Shown: one piece after another, positions 25,387 through 39,669 of the stretch
Layout: every line of letters begins with the position of its first letter
Numbering within the stretch: position 1 is the first letter of the stretch
Origin: Bacteroidales bacterium
GTDB taxonomy: Bacteria > Bacteroidota > Bacteroidia > Bacteroidales > P3
Direction of reading: 5' to 3'
Assembly: GCA_017616895.1 (NCBI GenBank)
Contig: JAFZXE010000011.1
Coordinates: 1 to 64,000, forward strand
Length of the DNA stretch: 64,000 bases
Notes under the pieces: model-generated
What the model was told of the DNA's origin: nothing
The model's database searches: none
The model's input: only the letters and a program-made list of their open reading frames with translations
Translations under genes and position numbers: made by a program

Positions 25387-25977
25387 ATGGACGAAACCAA
25401 ACAGTTATACATCATAGCCGGTTGCAACGGAGCCGGAAAGACCACCGCTTCCTACACGGTGCTGCCCGAGATTCTCGGTTGTCAGGAGTTCGTCAACGCC
25501 GACGAGATAGCGCGCGGTCTCTCTCCGTTCCACCCCGAAACCGTGATGGTTCAAGCAGGGCGACTGCTGGTCAAGCGCGTTGACGAGCTGCTCGCCCAAG
25601 GCGCCACCTTCGCCATCGAAACCACCCTCTCGCCACGCACCTACCGCACCCTCATCATCAAAGCACAGGAGATGGGTTATCGCTGCAGCCTCCTCTATTT
25701 CTGGCTCGAATCGCCCGAGATGGCCGAGATGCGTGTTGCAAAGCGTGTCGAAGCTGGCGGACACGACGTGCCAAAACACGTCATCCATCGCCGCTATCGC
25801 CTCGGGCTCGAACACCTTTTCGAACTTTATATGTCCTGCGTCGATTACTGGGTGCTGTTCGACAATTCGTCGCTCAACCGCGTCCTCGTCGCCGAAGGCG
25901 GACGCGATCTGCCCACCACCATCCACGCACCCGAAACCTATCAACAAATCGAAGACTATGTCGGAAGAAGAAGCTAA
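25387..25977 (+). CDS. Zeta toxin-like P-loop kinase
   Basis: A 196-residue single-domain P-loop protein of the zeta toxin/COG4185 family. Walker A GCNGAGKT is at 12-19. NADE at 37-40 and ETTLS at 78-82 are the substrate-site motifs. The RRYRLGLEHL region near the C-terminus is the arginine-rich lid. Classical zeta toxins phosphorylate UDP-N-acetylglucosamine; whether this short chromosomal form does so is unknown. No epsilon-type antitoxin precedes it. Instead a 74-codon gene overlaps its 3' end by 20 bases, so the two are translationally coupled and may form a unit. Confidence 0.8.
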   Translation: MDETKQLYIIAGCNGAGKTTASYTVLPEILGCQEFVNADEIARGLSPFHPETVMVQAGRLLVKRVDELLAQGATFAIETTLSPRTYRTLIIKAQEMGYRCSLLYFWLESPEMAEMRVAKRVEAGGHDVPKHVIHRRYRLGLEHLFELYMSCVDYWVLFDNSSLNRVLVAEGGRDLPTTIHAPETYQQIEDYVGRRS

Positions 25978-30506: not shown

Positions 30507-31907
30507 TTATTCTGTCGTTAAAAGTTTTTCTATCTGAGGAACCAGCCTGTCAATGTCGCCGGCTCCAAGTGTGACGAGGATATCGGGATATAGCGCTGGG
30601 ATAAGTTCCATCAGCTGTTCCTTGGTCACAAGGTATTTGGAGAGGGTGTCCATCTTGCGAAGTATCATACCCGACGAGACACCAGGCATCGGCTTCTCTC
30701 GGGCTGGGTAAATCGGCAGCAACACAGCCTCGTCAAGTGTAGAAAGAACCTCGGCAAACTGGTCGGCAAAATCCGCAGTACGGCTATACAGATGAGGCTG
30801 AAACACCCCAACGATACGCTTGCCTGGATAAAGGAAACGGATGCTGTCGAGCGTGGCGGCAATCTCTTTCGGATGATGCGCATAGTCGTCTATATAGACC
30901 ACATCCTTTGTCTCGACTCTAAAATCGAACCGACGGCATACACCCTCGTATGATTTTAAACCTGCCCGCAACTCAAATTCATCAAGGCCGCACTCTAAGG
31001 CAACCGCAGCAGCCACCACAGAATTCTCTACATTGTAAAGACTGGTGTGGTGAAGTTCTATATCGTATATCACACCTTTGGGGGTACGCAAATCATAATA
31101 TATGTTACCGCGACTGGTTCTTACGTTCCATGCGTAGTAATCAGCCTCTATACCCGATGTGGTGTATGAAATAATCGGAACTGAGACACCTTCAGATAGA
31201 TTATGACCGTGTCCCTCATGTTCGTGTCCTTCATGCTCATGTTCTTCGCCGTCCGAAAACGCGACTCCTTGTTTGAGGAATAGTTTCCCATCCGACTTTG
31301 TCTGGTTTGCAAACTGAAGGAACGCTTCACGGAGATGGTCATAATCGCCATAGATATCCAAATGGTCAGGGTCTATCGATGTTATCACCGAATAATATGG
31401 ATGAAGCTGCAAAAACGACCTATCATATTCATCGGCCTCCACCACAACAAAATCGCTTTTATTGTCAACGACGATATTGCTCTGGAAATTCTTTGAAATG
31501 CCACCCAGAAATGCGCTACACCCCAGCTTACTCTTTGAAAGCAGGTGTGCTATCATAGTGCTGGTAGAGGTTTTGCCGTGTGTACCAGCAACGGCAATAC
31601 ACTTTTTGCCGTCGGTCAGCTGTCCGAGCATTTGAGACCGTTTCAGCATAAGCCTGCCCGAGCCTTCCGCCCATTTGAACACTGCCGTGTCGCGAGGCAC
31701 CGCAGGTGTATAGACAAAGCACTCAACATTCTTTGGCATAAGCTCGGGATTATCCTCATAGAAAACCTCTATCCCCTCTTTCTCCAACGCAGCCGTGAGC
31801 GGGCTGGGCGTAAGGTCGTAACCCGACACCTGGTCACCACGCAGATGCAGATAGCGCGCTATTGCGCTCATGCCAATGCCTCCTATGCCAATGAAGAAGT
31901 AATTCAT
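30507..31907 (-). CDS. murC: UDP-N-acetylmuramate--L-alanine ligase MurC
   Basis: A 466-residue ATP-dependent Mur ligase adding L-Ala to UDP-MurNAc in the cytoplasm. The N-terminal Rossmann motif is GIGGIGMSA, the P-loop GTHGKTS is at 108-114, and the EADEYDRSF and DDYAHHP motifs are intact. Residues 221-235 are a histidine-rich insertion with six His alternating with Glu and Gly (HEHEGHEHEGHGH). I do not expect this in MurC. Its ATG overlaps the murG stop by one base (TAATG), so translation is coupled. Confidence 0.95.
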   Translation of the reverse strand: MNYFFIGIGGIGMSAIARYLHLRGDQVSGYDLTPSPLTAALEKEGIEVFYEDNPELMPKNVECFVYTPAVPRDTAVFKWAEGSGRLMLKRSQMLGQLTDGKKCIAVAGTHGKTSTSTMIAHLLSKSKLGCSAFLGGISKNFQSNIVVDNKSDFVVVEADEYDRSFLQLHPYYSVITSIDPDHLDIYGDYDHLREAFLQFANQTKSDGKLFLKQGVAFSDGEEHEHEGHEHEGHGHNLSEGVSVPIISYTTSGIEADYYAWNVRTSRGNIYYDLRTPKGVIYDIELHHTSLYNVENSVVAAAVALECGLDEFELRAGLKSYEGVCRRFDFRVETKDVVYIDDYAHHPKEIAATLDSIRFLYPGKRIVGVFQPHLYSRTADFADQFAEVLSTLDEAVLLPIYPAREKPMPGVSSGMILRKMDTLSKYLVTKEQLMELIPALYPDILVTLGAGDIDRLVPQIEKLLTTE

Positions 31908-33013
31908 TATTTTATCAGTTTTTCTATCTCATCCACAATCAGATCTGCCGAATGTCTGACTCCAAGTTTCTTTATATTTGCACTCATCTTTTCTCTCAAA
32001 TCCTCATCTTTGAGTATTTTGTCCAGCACCTCTATGCCTTTTTCGCCACACAGCTTGTCGGCCACGACCTCGGCTGCTCCCTTGTTTGCGAGCGACATAG
32101 CGTTTTTCGTCTGGTGGTCTTCCGCCACATTGGGTGACGGTATCAATATTACAGGTTTTCCCACAAGGCATAGTTCTGATATGGCTATTGCTCCAGCTCT
32201 GGAAACCACTGCATCTGCAGCAGCGTATGCGTAATCCATCTTGCTGACGAACTCATACACCTTGACCCACGGCGTCAACCCCTGACTCTCCACCGCACTC
32301 ACTGCCTCCTTGTACATCCACCGTCCCGTCTGCCATATCAGTTGTATGTCATTCTGTTTGAAGTAGTCAAGGTTTTTAAGTATCATCTCGTTTATGCTTC
32401 TCGCACCCAGGCTTCCGCCGACGGACAGCACCACTCTTTTACTATTGTCCAAATCGAACTCCTTACGACCATCCTCTCGCGAGATTGACAACTCCTCAAT
32501 CTCCTTGCGAACAGGGTTGCCCGTAAAGACTATACGCTCTTTCGGGAAAAACCGCTCCATATTGTCGTATGCCACACAAATTTTCGCAGCTTTTTTTGCA
32601 AGTGTCTTGTTGGTCAGTCCCGCATACGAATTCTGCTCCTGTATCAGTGTGGTATAGCCCATTGCCGAAGCTGTCTTCAGCGTCGGCTCACTGGCAAACC
32701 CTCCAACACCCACCACAATGTCGGGGTTGAATTTCTTGATTATCCCCCTGACCATCAGCCGACTTTTTATCACCTTATACGGCAACATGGCGTTCTTGAC
32801 CAGGTTGGTCAACGTAATCTTACGCTGTAGCCCGGCTATGGGAAGACCTTTTATCTCATAACCTGCCGCTGGGACTTTCTCCATCTCCATTCGTCCTTGC
32901 GCTCCCACAAACAAAATCTCAGCATCCGGCCAGCGTCTCTTTATTGCGTTGGCTATTGCCACTGCGGGGAATATATGCCCACCGCTACCGCCTCCACTGA
33001 TTATTGCTTTCAT
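31907..33013 (-). CDS. murG: UDP-GlcNAc transferase MurG (lipid II synthesis)
   Basis: A 368-residue GT28 glycosyltransferase that converts lipid I to lipid II at the inner membrane face. The N-terminal glycine-rich loop GGGSGGHIFPA, the second SVGGSLGA loop and the sugar-nucleotide site SRAGAIAISEL are all present. It lies 16 bases after ftsW and overlaps murC by one base. Confidence 0.96.
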   Translation of the reverse strand: MKAIISGGGSGGHIFPAVAIANAIKRRWPDAEILFVGAQGRMEMEKVPAAGYEIKGLPIAGLQRKITLTNLVKNAMLPYKVIKSRLMVRGIIKKFNPDIVVGVGGFASEPTLKTASAMGYTTLIQEQNSYAGLTNKTLAKKAAKICVAYDNMERFFPKERIVFTGNPVRKEIEELSISREDGRKEFDLDNSKRVVLSVGGSLGARSINEMILKNLDYFKQNDIQLIWQTGRWMYKEAVSAVESQGLTPWVKVYEFVSKMDYAYAAADAVVSRAGAIAISELCLVGKPVILIPSPNVAEDHQTKNAMSLANKGAAEVVADKLCGEKGIEVLDKILKDEDLREKMSANIKKLGVRHSADLIVDEIEKLIK

Positions 33014-33029: not shown

Positions 33030-34196
33030 TTATTCTGATGTTATTTTTTCCTGCGAATTAGATTTCTGTGCGTTGCGCTCTTCCAGTGCCTTGCGCCGTT
33101 TCAAGTCCTGCGCCACCGACTGTACACCCCCTAAACCTATGCTCATCACTACGTATGCCGAGCCTCCATAGCTGATGAACGGAAGCGTCTGTCCTGTCAC
33201 TGGTATAACACCCACCGACACACATATATGAACCAGCGCCTGAACGTATATGAGAGTTCCCATACCTACGCAAACGAGCTTGCCGAAGAGCTTGTCACAC
33301 TTGCGGGCAACCACCAGGCAACGCAGGTAGAGGAAGGAATAGGCCAATAGTATGGCAATCCCCACAAGGCTGCCAGCCTCTTCCACAATCACTGCATAAA
33401 TAAAGTCATTATGAGCCTGCGTCATCAATCGTCCATGAATGGTATTTCCAATGCCAGCGCCGAACAGTCCCCCACGAGCCACCGCCATATGCGACATATT
33501 CTCCTGGTTGTATATTGTCGGGTCAGGATGTAGCCATTTATCAACTCGGCTAGCCCATGTTTCTGAACGAAAGAGGGGTTTGTCCAGCAACATGTTCACC
33601 AACACAAACACAAGTGCAAGTCCAAGCAATACCAACAGGCATTTGCCCAGCGCACTCTTTTTAACCCCTGCCACATACATCATGATAATGCATACCACAA
33701 AAGTGATAATGGCACTCGACAAGTTCTCTGGGAATATCAACCCACAGGTTACCAAGACAGGTATGAGAGCGATAGGGGCGAAATACTTATCCTCCAGATT
33801 ATCCTTGTATTTTGAGAGTATGGTGGCGAGGAAATACAGCAGGCATATCTTGGCCACCTCTGACGGCTGAATACTACCAATTATCGGTATTCTAAACCAA
33901 CGGCCGCCAAACACAACCAAGACAACAAAAAGAGCGATGATGGAAAGCAGAAATGCGAAAAACGAAAATCGAGAAAAGTACTTGTAGCTAATGCGTCCGC
34001 CTGCCCACACAAAAGCATATCCCATGACGATAAACACCAAATGCCTTAGTGTCGCCAAAAGGGGACTGCGTCCAAGGTCATGCCGAGCCGTGAAACCGAT
34101 TGAGGTATATACAGCAAGCACTGACACTATGGAGAGGAATATGAACACCACCCATATTGCGCGATCACCTTTGACTATGGCCGAGAACTTGCTCAT
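33030..34196 (-). CDS. ftsW: Lipid II polymerase FtsW
   Basis: A 388-residue SEDS-family protein with about ten membrane segments. Conserved patterns include QPSEVAK in the first half and the loop GRLMTQAHNDFIYAVIVEE with the catalytic-region acidic residues. The C-terminal TLPFISYGGSA is the SEDS signature. It polymerises septal glycan together with FtsI. A charged cytoplasmic tail follows. Confidence 0.95.
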   Translation of the reverse strand: MSKFSAIVKGDRAIWVVFIFLSIVSVLAVYTSIGFTARHDLGRSPLLATLRHLVFIVMGYAFVWAGGRISYKYFSRFSFFAFLLSIIALFVVLVVFGGRWFRIPIIGSIQPSEVAKICLLYFLATILSKYKDNLEDKYFAPIALIPVLVTCGLIFPENLSSAIITFVVCIIMMYVAGVKKSALGKCLLVLLGLALVFVLVNMLLDKPLFRSETWASRVDKWLHPDPTIYNQENMSHMAVARGGLFGAGIGNTIHGRLMTQAHNDFIYAVIVEEAGSLVGIAILLAYSFLYLRCLVVARKCDKLFGKLVCVGMGTLIYVQALVHICVSVGVIPVTGQTLPFISYGGSAYVVMSIGLGGVQSVAQDLKRRKALEERNAQKSNSQEKITSE

Positions 34197-34265: not shown

Positions 34266-34805
34266 TCACAACTCACACACTTCCCTGCGGAATGCAGCCC
34301 CGGAGTCTTTCACCGAAACTCCGCTCTGAGTTGACGGAGAGTATATCACAGTGGCCGTCTCAACATTTCCATACAGAGCGCGATTAACCGCATACTCCAT
34401 TGACGGACAGTCTATAATCTGCGATACCACACCATCGAATGCTTGATGCAACGACTCGGCATGTTCTCCGACACAAAGTATCATCTTGACCTTTTGTGAG
34501 ACGCAGGTCTTCAGTTTCCTGTAATCGATGCTGTCGCTGGAACCATTCGCAATCCATATTATAGGACCCTCGGTTGACTCCAAGGCATACCATGTGGCAT
34601 TTACATTGCACGAAGCAGCGTCATCCACAAAACATTTGTCCTGAATTCTTGCCACAAACTCCATCTTATGGGGAATGTCATCCAGATGCTTGAAACAGTC
34701 ACGCAAACCCTGGTTACGAATCTTGATGAGTTGTGCACGGTTTACTGCTGCCAAACCTGAATGGTTAGTACTTGTAATTTGACGTGTTATGGTTTCTATT
34801 CCCAT
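34266..34805 (-). CDS. murD: Truncated MurD: C-terminal domain only
   Basis: A 179-residue product in the exact position of murD between mraY and ftsW. It aligns by eye to the last ~180 residues of Bacteroidota MurD: HKMEFVARI, NVNATWYALES, PIIWIANG, KMILCVGE, then a final FRREVCEL. The N-terminal UDP-binding domain and central ATPase domain (GTNGKTT) are missing. Only 37 bases separate it from mraY, so they are deleted rather than frameshifted. The normally conserved DSKATN reads DDAASCN and SPACAS reads SPSTQS, so catalytic residues are also lost. It cannot be a working D-glutamate ligase. It is either decaying or kept for a structural role; an active murD must be elsewhere. Confidence 0.8.
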   Translation of the reverse strand: MGIETITRQITSTNHSGLAAVNRAQLIKIRNQGLRDCFKHLDDIPHKMEFVARIQDKCFVDDAASCNVNATWYALESTEGPIIWIANGSSDSIDYRKLKTCVSQKVKMILCVGEHAESLHQAFDGVVSQIIDCPSMEYAVNRALYGNVETATVIYSPSTQSGVSVKDSGAAFRREVCEL

Positions 34806-34842: not shown

Positions 34843-36018
34843 CTATCTGAGTTTCAATGTCACAATACTCACTATTGCGAGCAGGACTGCTATAATTATG
34901 AAACGCTGTACAACTTTCTCCTCTGCCTGCCCTGTTTTCTGGAAGTGGTGATGCAGCGGTGTCATTCTATAAGGTCTCTTATCCACTGGCACTGCCTCGC
35001 TTGGCTTCAGATGATGACGTTTACGGTATATCTTGCAGAACGTGGTTTGATGTATAACCGAAAGATCCTCGAACAGATATATACCGCACAGAAGCGGAAG
35101 CAGCAGTTCCTTGTGTATAAGCAATGCAAAAACAGCGATTATACCTCCTATTGTAAGCGAGCCTGTATCTCCCATGAATATTTGTGCTGGATGGCTGTTA
35201 AACCACAAGAATCCCAACAGAGCTCCGACAAATGACGATATAAACATTGTCAACTCTCCAATATGAGGCAGATATGCTATGTTCAGGTAGTTTGCCATGA
35301 CAATATTGCCCGAAAGCCAAGCCAGAATGGCAAGTGCGCCTCCCACCGTAGCCCCCACTCCACTGGCCAGTCCGTCTATACCGTCTGTAAGATTAGCGGC
35401 ATTCGACACCGCCGTCACAACAAATATCGCCACCAGCACAAATACCAGCCACACCCACTTCTCGGCCCATTCTCCCATCCAGCTGACCAACCATACGTAG
35501 TCAAACTCGTTGTTCTTGACAAACGGTATGGTAGTCTTGGTTGTAGAAATCTCTGGGTGGAACACAATCAGAAGTCCGACCACCAAACCCAGAGCCACTT
35601 GACCTATGACTTTGTAGCGTCCAGCCAGACCTTTCTTGCTCACCTTCTTTTTCATATAGTCATCCAGAAAGCCTATCAACCCAAGCCACAGTGTCGTGCA
35701 AAGCATGATGATAATATATATGTTGTCGAGCTTTGTGAACAAAAGTGACGGCACTACTATCGCGGCAATAATTAGCAAACCGCCCATCGTTGGGGTATTT
35801 GCTTTCTGATTTGCACCCTCAAGTCCCAACTCCGTGCGTACAACATCCTTCATGTGCAACTTGTTTCCAATCCATCTAATGAACGGCTTTCCACACAACA
35901 GCATGATAAGCAGCGACGAGATGAAACAACACGCCGCACGGAAAGAAATATACTGGAACACACCTGCTCCGGGAAAGTTGTATGCGCGATCCAGCCAGTC
36001 AAATAGGTAGTATAACAT
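34843..36018 (-). CDS. mraY: Phospho-N-acetylmuramoyl-pentapeptide transferase MraY
   Basis: A 391-residue polytopic membrane enzyme with about ten helices. It transfers phospho-MurNAc-pentapeptide to undecaprenyl phosphate (lipid I). Catalytic motifs present are DDY at 119-121, NAANLTDGIDGLA at 206-218, FMGDTGSL, and the cytoplasmic His motif MTPLHHHF. It lies 43 bases after murE. Confidence 0.96.
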   Translation of the reverse strand: MLYYLFDWLDRAYNFPGAGVFQYISFRAACCFISSLLIMLLCGKPFIRWIGNKLHMKDVVRTELGLEGANQKANTPTMGGLLIIAAIVVPSLLFTKLDNIYIIIMLCTTLWLGLIGFLDDYMKKKVSKKGLAGRYKVIGQVALGLVVGLLIVFHPEISTTKTTIPFVKNNEFDYVWLVSWMGEWAEKWVWLVFVLVAIFVVTAVSNAANLTDGIDGLASGVGATVGGALAILAWLSGNIVMANYLNIAYLPHIGELTMFISSFVGALLGFLWFNSHPAQIFMGDTGSLTIGGIIAVFALLIHKELLLPLLCGIYLFEDLSVIHQTTFCKIYRKRHHLKPSEAVPVDKRPYRMTPLHHHFQKTGQAEEKVVQRFIIIAVLLAIVSIVTLKLR

Positions 36019-36061: not shown

Positions 36062-37513
36062 TTAATCGTTCAAGAATTTCCCCACTTCCTCCTTGTCGTC
36101 AAAGTGGCTACGCACCCCATTCACCTCTTGATACTTCTCATGGCCCTTTCCTGCCACCAGTATTATGTCGCCGTCCTTTGCCGTCATGCACGCAGTCTTA
36201 ATAGCCTGCCGCCTGTCGCTGATTCGCAAAGCCTGTCGCTGTTCGTCAGACGTAAGCCCGGCATACATGTCGTCCAATATGGATTCAGGATTTTCTGTAC
36301 GGGGATTGTCCGATGTCAGAATCACTATATCGCTTTTGCGCACAGCTATCTGTGCCATCTCTGGACGCTTGGTCTTGTCCCTGTCTCCACCGCAGCCTAC
36401 CACTGTGATAAGCCGCTGCTGTTTTTCCCTTATCGCATTGATGGTGTCTATCACATTCTCAAGAGCATCGGGTGTGTGCGCATAATCCACAATTGCGGTC
36501 ACACCTTTGCCGTTGATATACTCAAATCTACCCTCTGCCGCCGAAAGCGTGCTAAGCAGACGCAAAGCCTCCAACTTATCTATACCGCAAAGCACAGCCA
36601 CACCGTATATCGCTGTCACATTATAGGCGTTGAAACGCCCCACCAGACGTACCCACACCTCACATCCGTTGAGTTCAAGGTGAAGTCCCTGGAAGGTGTT
36701 TTCTATTATCTTGCAGCCGAAATCGGCATTACCCCTGAGCGAATATGTAGAGACCGTCGCCTTGGTGTTCTGCACCATAACCATGCCGTTGCGGTCATCC
36801 TTGTTGACCAACGCGAAAGCCCCTGCCGGCAGCATGTCGAAGAAGCCTTTCTTGGCTTCGATGTAGGCTTTCATGGTTTTGTGGAAATCCAAATGGTCAT
36901 GGGTTATATTACTGAACACTCCGCCATAAAATGTCAAGCCTCCAATACGATGCTGCACCACCGCATGTGAACTCACCTCCATAAAGCAGTAGTCGCAGCC
37001 TTGCTTGACCATCTCCGAAAGCAGTCGGTTCAACTCCAATGCATCGGGCGTCGTGTGTGTCGTTGGAATATCCTGCTCGTCAATCTTGTTCACTATCGTG
37101 GATATCAACCCCACATGGTGTCCTGCCAGTCGGAACATTCGGTGCAGAAGCGTGACCGTTGTTGTCTTTCCGTTGGTTCCGGTCACTCCAACCAGTTTTA
37201 TCTGCCTGGAAGGATTGCCGTAGTAGTTTGAAGCCATGTCCCCAAGTGCCGCACTGCTGTCGGACACCACAATATATGACACCTCTGGATTCAAGCTGCC
37301 GGGCAACTCTTCACAAACCACAGCCACAGCACCCTGACTTACCGCCTGGTCAATATACTTGTGTCCATCGACATGCACTCCTCTTTGTGCCACAAAAAGT
37401 GATCCGCTACCTACAGCGCGTGAGTCAAATGTGACACTCTTTATTTCTCTCTCCGAGAAATTGTGTCTTTCACAATCAAGTCCTGCTATTATCCTGGTCA
37501 ACTGCATTTTCAA
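36062..37513 (-). CDS. murE: UDP-MurNAc-tripeptide synthetase MurE, meso-DAP type
   Basis: A 483-residue Mur ligase. The P-loop TGTNGKTT is at 111-118, SSHA near 181-184 and DYAHTPDALE near 343-352. The specificity motif DNPR at 402-405 indicates meso-diaminopimelate rather than lysine as substrate. It overlaps the upstream ftsI by four bases (ATGA type), indicating coupling. Confidence 0.96.
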   Translation of the reverse strand: MKMQLTRIIAGLDCERHNFSEREIKSVTFDSRAVGSGSLFVAQRGVHVDGHKYIDQAVSQGAVAVVCEELPGSLNPEVSYIVVSDSSAALGDMASNYYGNPSRQIKLVGVTGTNGKTTTVTLLHRMFRLAGHHVGLISTIVNKIDEQDIPTTHTTPDALELNRLLSEMVKQGCDYCFMEVSSHAVVQHRIGGLTFYGGVFSNITHDHLDFHKTMKAYIEAKKGFFDMLPAGAFALVNKDDRNGMVMVQNTKATVSTYSLRGNADFGCKIIENTFQGLHLELNGCEVWVRLVGRFNAYNVTAIYGVAVLCGIDKLEALRLLSTLSAAEGRFEYINGKGVTAIVDYAHTPDALENVIDTINAIREKQQRLITVVGCGGDRDKTKRPEMAQIAVRKSDIVILTSDNPRTENPESILDDMYAGLTSDEQRQALRISDRRQAIKTACMTAKDGDIILVAGKGHEKYQEVNGVRSHFDDKEEVGKFLND

Positions 37514-39669
37514 AAATTATTTCTAAGTGTAAGCTGTACCTTGCTGCCCGATTTGAGCTTGGTGCCGTGCGCGACATCTTGCTTCACGACTCGCCCAAGT
37601 CCCTCGAATCTCGCTCTGAGACCTCGTTTCTCCAGTGCTGCAATGGCTTGGCGTACTGTCATATTTCGGCAATCTGGCACCACGCCATTTTCTCCATCGG
37701 CTATCGCTTTCGCCTCGGTGGTGTTCATCCGTTTTACTCCCGACCTGCTACCGACCTCTATCTTTCCGTTCTCTAGTTTGTTGTCAAGCGCCACCACACA
37801 ATCCGAAATCTTCTTGAACACTGGAGCTGCTGCCGAACGTCCGTATGCTGGCACATTCTTAACCACAACCAGACAGGTATAGCGCGGATTCTCAGCTGGG
37901 AAGTAGCCCGCAAACGAGGCATTGAACACACCGGGCGAGTTAAGGTTGACCGATGTACCGGTCTTGCCAGCTATACCGTAGCTGTTGTCCTTTATGTTGT
38001 CGCCCGTTCCATGTTCCACCACGTTTACCAGCAGGTCGTTGATGGTCTTCAGGGACTTTTTATCGCATATCGACTCGCGCATCACCACGGGTTTTATCTC
38101 CTGTCTTTCGCCATTCTTTATTATAGCCTTGCAAAACAGGGGTTTCATCATTTTACCGCCATTGGCAAGTGCGTTGTAGAACGTTATCAGCTGCATAGCC
38201 GAAATGGATTGGGCATAGCCGAAGCACAACCCCAAAAAGTCGCGCTGAGATAGAGTAATGTCGTTCACTATCGGCTTGTATTCGCCAGTCTTCAGGTCAA
38301 GATGCAGCACATCGTATGGAAACACCTTTTCCATAAGTCTGCTCAAATCGCCTCTCCTGTTGTTATAGTTCTGCCATCCGAGCTCGCACATAGCCACATT
38401 GCTTGATATGGTGATAGCTTCCTTCAACGAGATGGTGTCCTTGCGAATCTTCCGTGTCGCTGGGTCTTTGTACAGGAAGTGGTCGTCTTTAATCTCTCCA
38501 TCCTGTCTCCCTGTGAAGTTTTTCACACAGGCGCGTATCCTCATTGCGGTATCGATTGTTATCGACGAGTCGTTCATCATGGCAGTCAACAACACCGTCT
38601 TTATAGTCGAACCGGGATTATAGAGGTCCGAGCAGGCTATGTTTTTGTCTGGCAACTCGCGATACTCTCCATACACGCTGTCCCATGCAAGGTTGCTGCA
38701 TGCCAGCACATATCCTGTTGCGGCCTCCATCAATATAGCGCAACCGCTGCTACGCGACGTTCCGCCACTTCTGTGCAACGCCTGACGCAGCGCAGTTTCA
38801 GCGATGTCCTGATACCTCGTATCAATGGTCGCCACAATGTCTGATCCGTCGATGCGTTCTTTTTTCTGCTTGTCTCGAGCCAGCGTATCGGAAGCCGACT
38901 GTCCCTCATAATCCACCGCTGTGACTGGAATCCACACTCCACGGGCGAGACGGCGGCACTCGTAAAGGCCGTCCTGTCCGGCCAGCACATTGTTATAGTA
39001 CCCCTCCAATCCAGTCGAAAGCCTGTGGTCGTTATACCCGAACCCTATGCAGTTTTCTGCCAAATTGCCGTATATATGCTCCCTGTTCTGCCTTATCACA
39101 CTGGTTCCGTCTCCCATCAGCTTCACCACAAAACGGCCCCAACCGTCAAAATGCACTATCTTGTCCCATGTGGTATATGGGATGTTGCGTTCTATCAAGA
39201 AACACCTCGACGGTTTCTCCTTTGCCCGCTCCGAGTCGAAACGGTCTCTATAGTACTGGGCGTCGCGTCCCGGTCTCTCCAACTCTGCCAACAATGCACA
39301 CACCGTATCTATCACAGGTTTGTATAGCGAGTCTGGCAATATTTTCGCCATCACCGTATGTCCGAGTGAATCCTTCACTTCCCGTCCCTTTTTGTCGCGC
39401 ACCACTCGGCTACCCATATCCACATACAGATTGCAGATAGGTATTGTCGTGGCCATTATCTTGCCGTCCGACGAATATATATTGCCTCTCCGTGCCTCAT
39501 CTACAATCTCTTCAGCCTCATGCTTCTCCGCTATATCCAGCCACATCTTCCGCTGCACCAACTGTATTCTTATGAAGCCACCAATGACAAACAAGCCCGC
39601 CACCATAAGCAGTATATATACTATGGTCATGCGTTGCAGTTGTTTCTTGTCTCCGTCAGCGTGTGGCAT
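37510..39669 (-). CDS. ftsI: Septal transpeptidase FtsI/PBP with PASTA domain
   Basis: A 719-residue class B penicillin-binding protein. A single N-terminal membrane helix (~15-32) anchors the protein. A dimerisation domain and the transpeptidase domain follow, with STIK at 354-357, SSN at 422-424 and KTGT at 569-572. All active-site motifs are intact. The C-terminal ~65 residues form one PASTA domain (VVPDCRNMTVRQAIAALEKRG), as in SpoVD-like PBPs of Bacteroidota. It cross-links septal peptidoglycan with FtsW. Confidence 0.95.
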   Translation of the reverse strand: MPHADGDKKQLQRMTIVYILLMVAGLFVIGGFIRIQLVQRKMWLDIAEKHEAEEIVDEARRGNIYSSDGKIMATTIPICNLYVDMGSRVVRDKKGREVKDSLGHTVMAKILPDSLYKPVIDTVCALLAELERPGRDAQYYRDRFDSERAKEKPSRCFLIERNIPYTTWDKIVHFDGWGRFVVKLMGDGTSVIRQNREHIYGNLAENCIGFGYNDHRLSTGLEGYYNNVLAGQDGLYECRRLARGVWIPVTAVDYEGQSASDTLARDKQKKERIDGSDIVATIDTRYQDIAETALRQALHRSGGTSRSSGCAILMEAATGYVLACSNLAWDSVYGEYRELPDKNIACSDLYNPGSTIKTVLLTAMMNDSSITIDTAMRIRACVKNFTGRQDGEIKDDHFLYKDPATRKIRKDTISLKEAITISSNVAMCELGWQNYNNRRGDLSRLMEKVFPYDVLHLDLKTGEYKPIVNDITLSQRDFLGLCFGYAQSISAMQLITFYNALANGGKMMKPLFCKAIIKNGERQEIKPVVMRESICDKKSLKTINDLLVNVVEHGTGDNIKDNSYGIAGKTGTSVNLNSPGVFNASFAGYFPAENPRYTCLVVVKNVPAYGRSAAAPVFKKISDCVVALDNKLENGKIEVGSRSGVKRMNTTEAKAIADGENGVVPDCRNMTVRQAIAALEKRGLRARFEGLGRVVKQDVAHGTKLKSGSKVQLTLRNNF

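Follow-up and report, generated by a model that had tools for sequence, protein, structure and literature searches.

The window analysed here, a stretch of 64,000 nucleotides from a Bacteroidales bacterium, contains a dcw cluster on the minus strand, in which the place of murD is taken by a short open reading frame (34266..34805) located between mraY (34843..36018; PF00953, PF10555) on its upstream and ftsW (33030..34196; PF01098) on its downstream side, with spacers of 37 bp and 69 bp, respectively. The frame starts with ATG and encodes 179 amino acids followed by a stop codon, without any internal stop or frameshift, and an in-frame stop lies shortly upstream of it. Further members of the cluster, all on the minus strand as well, are murE (36062..37513; NF001126, 616.5 bits) and murC (30507..31907; TIGR01082, 374.6 bits), both encoding all three ligase domains, murG (31907..33013; named by reading of the sequence) and a gene for a penicillin-binding protein in the ftsI position of the cluster (37510..39669; named by sequence reading and position). 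MurC, MurE, MraY and FtsW give ordinary full-length matches to their families.

The short frame encodes the C-terminal domain of MurD as a separate, intact protein, here called MurD-C. A search with Pfam and TIGR profiles (matches up to E 1) returned Mur_ligase_C as the only Pfam match (21.7 bits, below the cut-off of 28.4) and neither an N-terminal UDP-binding nor a central ATPase domain. The match to the murD profile TIGR01087 covers positions 278-421 of 441 (81.5 bits, E 6.7e-23) and stays below the equivalog cut-off of 211.95 bits, so that by score the protein does not belong to the MurD ligases. Its homology to the MurD C-terminal domain is evident from Pfam, TIGR01087 and alignments as well as from the structure database: a profile of MurD-C relatives (alignment A2) retrieved 11 distinct PDB sequences, all of them MurD (best 3lk7, E 5.4e-19). 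Compared with MurD itself (PF02875; PDB 3lk7, 7sir, 1uag), MurD-C is homologous over the last ~180 residues and occupies the same gene position, but it is devoid of the N-terminal and central domains, the DSKATN lysine and the SFDLF stretch. In the window, DDAASCN stands where full-length murD of the order has NDSKATN, the lysine of which is present in 44/44 aligned full-length rows. The first-pass annotation had described a murD reduced to its C-terminal domain, without the UDP and ATPase domains, with DDAASCN in place of DSKATN, and still in possession of its place in the cluster, its start codon and its open frame; in all of this it proved accurate. With these domains and its catalytic lysines lost, MurD-C is not expected to act as a ligase on its own.

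Within the genus, the short gene is widely conserved. Searching 99 genomes gave a match in 94, one of which (G114) was the MurD2 protein only, leaving 93 genomes that carry the gene, among them 53/53 of those at least 90% complete; the six genomes without it are 59-88% complete. None of the 93 copies contains an internal stop, and of 30 aligned copies 29 encode 179 and one 178 amino acids, with start codons at most two codons away from the common position. Of 253 related loci in public genomes, the best 80 (several of which are contigs also included in the 99 genomes) contain an ORF of 176-181 aa in 80/80 cases, the ATG nearest the match being taken as start, and in 79 of these 80 it lies between mraY and ftsW, i.e. 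in a nearly fixed place. The 80 loci are mostly titled uncultured Bacteroidales or Bacteroidetes, many of them from rumen or gut samples, and one (L186) is Candidatus Colimorpha pelethequi; another (L194, DBXK01000008.1), titled Christensenella sp. UBA1214, bears the same Bacteroidales cluster, its organism label probably being wrong. Because the short gene recurs in 93/99 genus genomes and 80/80 public loci, and hence in many separate assemblies, an assembly slip, which had been named as a possible refutation, is ruled out as its cause.

The rate of evolution points in the same direction. For the 435 pairs formed by the 30 copies, dS is saturated in most cases; of the closest 25 pairs, which were listed, three have a dS below 1, and in these dN/dS of murD-C is 0.137 (dS 0.64), 0.206 (dS 0.88) and 0.195 (dS 0.95), as compared to 0.265, 0.146 and 0.103 for ftsW and 0.054, 0.057 and 0.085 for mraY of the same pairs. 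The remaining listed pairs, with dS above 1 or saturated, gave finite values of 0.037-0.192. Neither a disabled frame nor a neutral rate, which would mark a pseudogene, was found; murD-C is under purifying selection and is not decaying, and the earlier suggestion that this piece has been kept is borne out by conservation and dN/dS alike. The opposite case, full-length murD in relatives combined with neutral decay of the fragment, does not apply to the genus; complete murD genes do occur in other families of the order. What selection has not preserved are the lysines: the one of DSKATN (K325) is absent from all rows of both genus alignments (30/30 in A1, 68/68 in A2), and the column of the DKGNDY lysine (K352) contains Lys in 2/30 (A1) and 6/68 (A2) rows and Asp in the window.

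In one metagenome assembly (L186/G083), murD-C was found relocated, flanked by a short ftsL-like ORF on one side and by the PBP gene on the other and lying ahead of murE, while the ftsW ORF opens 3 bp past the mraY stop. The relocated gene is intact, and the genus genome search found no further copy in G083. Since the gene stayed intact after its move, neither a cis role for ftsW nor passive retention in place explains its presence there.

The first-pass annotation had offered a second murD as one explanation for the short gene, and such a gene exists. The genome from which the window derives (G000; 2.61 Mb, 31 contigs, 88% complete) encodes a full-length MurD on another contig (C5:19628-20854, 294.9 bits), which constitutes the first half of a protein of 893 aa, the second half being an M20 amidohydrolase (L001, 88-2769, minus strand, C5). 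The gene next to it is a homologue of murL (NF041275, 261.8 bits, E 8.8e-78; the cut-off, set for Xanthomonadales, is 700). In Xanthomonas, MurD2 adds L-Glu and MurL converts it to D-Glu, and the preference for L-Glu is set by Glu in place of Asp182 and Arg in place of Lys348, in E. coli numbering (PMC8788868). Both residues are found in the window genome's protein (in the contexts QEH and DRG), and the Glu and Arg pair is present in 26/26 aligned MurD2-like rows (26 loci, 25 distinct genes) from genomes with MurL, versus Asp and Lys in 5/5 dcw MurDs. Glutamate racemase (MurI) gave no match in the window genome, at 88% completeness. Because of the MurL-like gene, the MurD2 with both specificity residues and the lack of a MurI match, D-glutamate is probably supplied through a route of the Xanthomonas type. 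The likeness to the published system lies in these three features, but in the window genome MurD2 is joined to the M20 hydrolase, and of the old murD a C-domain remains; besides, the lists in the parts of the Xanthomonas paper available to us name Gamma- and Alphaproteobacteria as well as actinobacteria, not Bacteroidales (PMC8788868). The fusions vary: in L317 (G114) MurL and MurD2 form one ORF with the M20 protein separate, and in L297 (G177) MurL-MurD2 is one protein of 876 aa.

Short forms are not restricted to this genus. Surveying 149 genomes from 119 families of the order, we found 23 with the C-domain only, 118 with full-length MurD, four in which the gene is cut by a contig end (G150, G205, G193 and G042, called neither short nor full) and four without a match, the short form recurring in many families. 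In a sample of 168 genomes of the phylum, that of the window was the only short form among the matches listed. The 22 short-form genomes beyond the window's have ORFs of 176-190 aa, followed by ftsW in 22/22 and preceded by mraY in 21, the contig ending first in the remaining one (G041). The gap between mraY and ftsW measures 522-843 bp in short-form genomes versus 1185-2080 bp in the 44 full-length regions fetched (G048 and G049 were omitted because of their short contigs, and some other full-length genomes by choice). A candidate fusion of the C-domain to its neighbour in G100 (a 397-aa frame) was not borne out, the open frame extending backwards across mraY. A literature search confined to open-licence papers found no description of a standalone MurD-C.

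The short form goes together with MurL. MurL was found in 53/149 genomes and MurI in 89/149, both in 0 and neither in 7; this mutual exclusion suggests that a MurD2/MurL-type route is widespread in Bacteroidales, as it appears from gene content. MurL is present in 22/23 short-form versus 26/118 full-length genomes (Fisher p 1.6e-11, uncorrected for kinship). In 23/23 of the MurL-containing full-length genomes examined (of 26), DSKATN and DKGNDY are kept despite the absence of MurI and the presence of MurD2, so MurL alone does not free MurD and the two routes can coexist. Three genomes with MurL (G056, G175, G227), whose dcw regions were not recovered whole, gave no C-domain match and could be true losses; neither was there a match in G053, which lacks MurL and is 70% complete.

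A few genomes contain the C-domain in a different setting. G051 (98% complete, ~10 contigs) has retained the gene for the C-domain in its place between mraY and ftsW, with some doubt about where this gene begins, as the ORF of 190 aa overlaps mraY, and at the limits used no match to MurD, MurL or MurI was found, MurC being absent as well. Four proteins of this genome resemble Mur ligases, namely MurE, MurF, FolC and one Mpl-like protein, the latter with 57% identity to the Mpl-like protein of the window genome and 24% to its MurC. This near-complete genome (L127, L292-L295), with MurE, MurF and an Mpl-like protein and no matches to MurC, MurD, MurI and MurL, may belong to an organism living on scavenged murein peptides, perhaps obligately. 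Two members of the genus outside the 149-genome set (G012 and G018; 92% and 96% complete) likewise have the C-domain, with no MurL match and no MurD over the cut-off.

Whether murD was truncated once or many times was approached with a tree of the flanking proteins (MurE, MraY, FtsW, MurG and MurC; 2102 columns, 66 genomes). It requires 12 changes between full and short (bootstrap range 11-13, at least five forced by starred branches), five rows being omitted from the count as edge cases or for more than 35% gaps (G218, G150, G045, G193, G205), and none of 200 bootstrap trees, which are not settled, gave a single origin; holding all short forms as one clade is rejected (p-AU 3.5e-9). Clean full and short neighbours are G132 (short) beside G246 (full), in one genus, and G041/G222 beside G146. 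Repeated truncation is therefore likely, though not settled. It is set against one ancient short gene that spread between dcw clusters by exchange, a reading that concerns origin and not function and that we regard as unlikely. The C-domain tree is compatible with it, one short clade not being rejected with 33 rows (p-AU 0.82) or with 12 slow rows after removal of the motif columns (p-AU 0.81), and in both tests the constrained tree even scored higher than the free one; but this alignment is short, and the short rows share relaxed columns, which may draw them together. Besides the flanking tree, a genus showing both states (g36) and the ancestral active site retained by some short forms also speak against a single origin.

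How far the active site has been lost differs among the short forms. Those of G222, G041 and G137 keep NDSKATN, DKGNDY and SPACASFD, that of G238 nearly so, and others keep part; the DSKATN-type lysine is retained in G132, G177 and G051. A residue comparison of 44 full-length rows with 19 short lineages found D323, I346, V367, A400 and F436 kept in 19/19 short lineages, W333, E310, V401 and V440 in 18/19, and K368, G374, S417, P418 and L443 in 17/19. Lost more often are K325 (kept in 13 of the 19), F423 (11), K352 (5) and H273 (0). This pattern implies that the fold and part of the surface are kept, and that the catalytic face is lost to a varying degree.

We therefore favour, at a probability of roughly 60%, the view that murD-C represents a remnant of MurD that is functional yet not catalytic, the ligase step having passed to MurD2/MurL and the C-domain being kept for a docking or regulatory job. 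A MurD2-type ligase and a MurL epimerase encoded elsewhere would take over the ligase step and presumably form the bond that brings in D-Glu; the domains that bind UDP and ATP would thereby be released from selection and deleted, leaving a protein made up of the C-terminal domain plus the last helix region of its central neighbour. The C-domain would have been spared because it would also serve a purpose other than catalysis, most likely docking or regulation within the cytoplasmic assembly of Mur proteins, MraY, MurG and FtsW; in this it would preserve a contact to MurG, MraY, MurE or the FtsW complex that has been a property of MurD all along. In other bacteria, MurG is reported to bind MurD, MurE and MurF (PMC6420597); as far as that source was accessible, these scaffolds resemble the proposed case in that Mur ligases serve as binding partners beside being enzymes, but they use whole ligases, whereas MurD-C would be a non-catalytic domain with a putative binding role. 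Of the first-pass reading, the second MurD and the retention of the fragment have thus stood, and its divisome scaffold is still hypothetical.

Among other functions for the protein, the spare C-domain might bind and tune the replacement ligase, being a subunit that serves MurD2/MurL specifically, in regulation or assembly. The presence of MurL in 22/23 C-domain-only genomes agrees with this, as do the fusions of MurL, MurD2 and M20 hydrolase in several genomes, which imply that the pathway builds complexes. We nevertheless consider it improbable, as G051 has the C-domain without a match to MurD, MurD2 or MurL, G012 and G018 have it without a MurL match or a MurD over the cut-off, and the gene stays with mraY and ftsW, not with murL, in 79 of the best 80 of 253 loci.

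The fold of the MurD C-domain once contacted the amino-acid substrate and the nucleotide, and MurD-C might use this old substrate face as a sensor of ligands, e.g. UDP-MurNAc peptides or a nucleotide. As contact residues are among those lost in the genus (K325 in 68/68 rows), we give this only a slim chance. Slightly less likely still is retention for a cis reason, with the 3' part of murD containing a promoter, an RNA element or translational coupling for ftsW: the position directly upstream of ftsW in 79/80 (best 80 of 253 loci) would fit, but dN/dS indicates selection on the protein, and in G083 the copy precedes the PBP gene with ftsW directly after mraY. That murD-C is the functionless, slowly dying remains of a replaced gene is scarcely credible, for although the catalytic lysine is gone and three genomes with MurL have no C-domain match, the 93 congeneric copies are free of internal stops, the length of 176-181 aa is held in 80/80 (best 80 of 253 loci), dN/dS is low and the gene was kept after relocation; very recent truncations outside the genus could be the only candidates for dying genes.

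The docking reading leaves room for a more specific history, in which the C-domain was translated on its own before any truncation took place. The start column of the short proteins holds Met in 15/19 short lineages and corresponds to Met265 (in the ORF of G038) of the full-length genes, where Met occurs in 40/43 genes of the order, making it the most Met-rich internal column, and in 22/30 genes outside the order. Codon tests were carried out on 43 of the 118 full-length genomes (regions fetched, ORF 430-480 aa), which are mutually related. The 20 nt preceding Met265 contain 43% A and 72% A+T; the starts of murD, ftsW and murG show 42-48% A and 65-72% A+T, and other internal Mets 33% and 56%. 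Compared with a null obtained by shuffling synonymous codons gene by gene, this stretch has more A (mean z 0.63, p 0.009), is richer in A/T-ending codons (z 0.79, p 8e-6) and is less structured (z 0.75, p 1.7e-6). The 15 least structured of 152 sampled murD positions are found at codons 253-277, where sampling was denser, and with even sampling the six top low-structure positions still lie within codons 249-277; gap-rich column 260 is strongly negative, and four other common Met columns of murD show no comparable signal.

The signal is strongest in full-length genes accompanied by MurL (n=23), weaker in those without MurL (n=20; z for A 0.20, ranking 36 of 151; folding rank 6) and weaker still outside the order (n=30; z for A 0.02, ranking 60 of 140; folding rank 6). 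As an alternative to an internal start, a general effect of domain ends on codon usage was considered; however, no such internal peak is seen in murE or murG from these genomes, their highest combined z being 0.40 (near the murE start) and 0.29, as compared to 0.90 for murD. A murC control (z 0.32) is flawed in that its reference row for G038 was the MurD of that genome.

The Met265 signature would be expected of an additional translation start inside the gene, without being proof of one. Bacteroidales murD might accordingly be two nested genes, the ligase and an internally started C-domain protein having a separate function in wall synthesis or division, the outer gene having been deleted repeatedly after the takeover by MurD2/MurL and the inner one kept. 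We advance this tentatively, at somewhat short of even odds; it would explain why most short genes share their start position. Internal starts are described as a source of N-terminal proteoforms in bacteria (PMC11005335, as far as accessible to us); the proposed case is alike in that a C-terminal isoform would arise from an in-frame internal start, but here codon and folding signatures alone point to it.

Across many families, the loss of the catalytic domains with retention of the tail amounts to a natural experiment, which points to a separately selected function of the MurD C-domain. Mur ligases are usually treated as pure enzymes and drug targets, and their structural role in the wall-building machine is an old question that now becomes directly testable. 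The survey also places the MurL-type route widely in Bacteroidales, an order absent from the lists seen in the Xanthomonas work (PMC8788868). Elsewhere in the window, a small zeta-toxin-like ATPase is encoded at 25387-25977 on the plus strand (PF06414, 35.0 bits; PF13671, 37.0 bits), its gene being flanked by cysS and ftsZ (names assigned by reading of the sequence).
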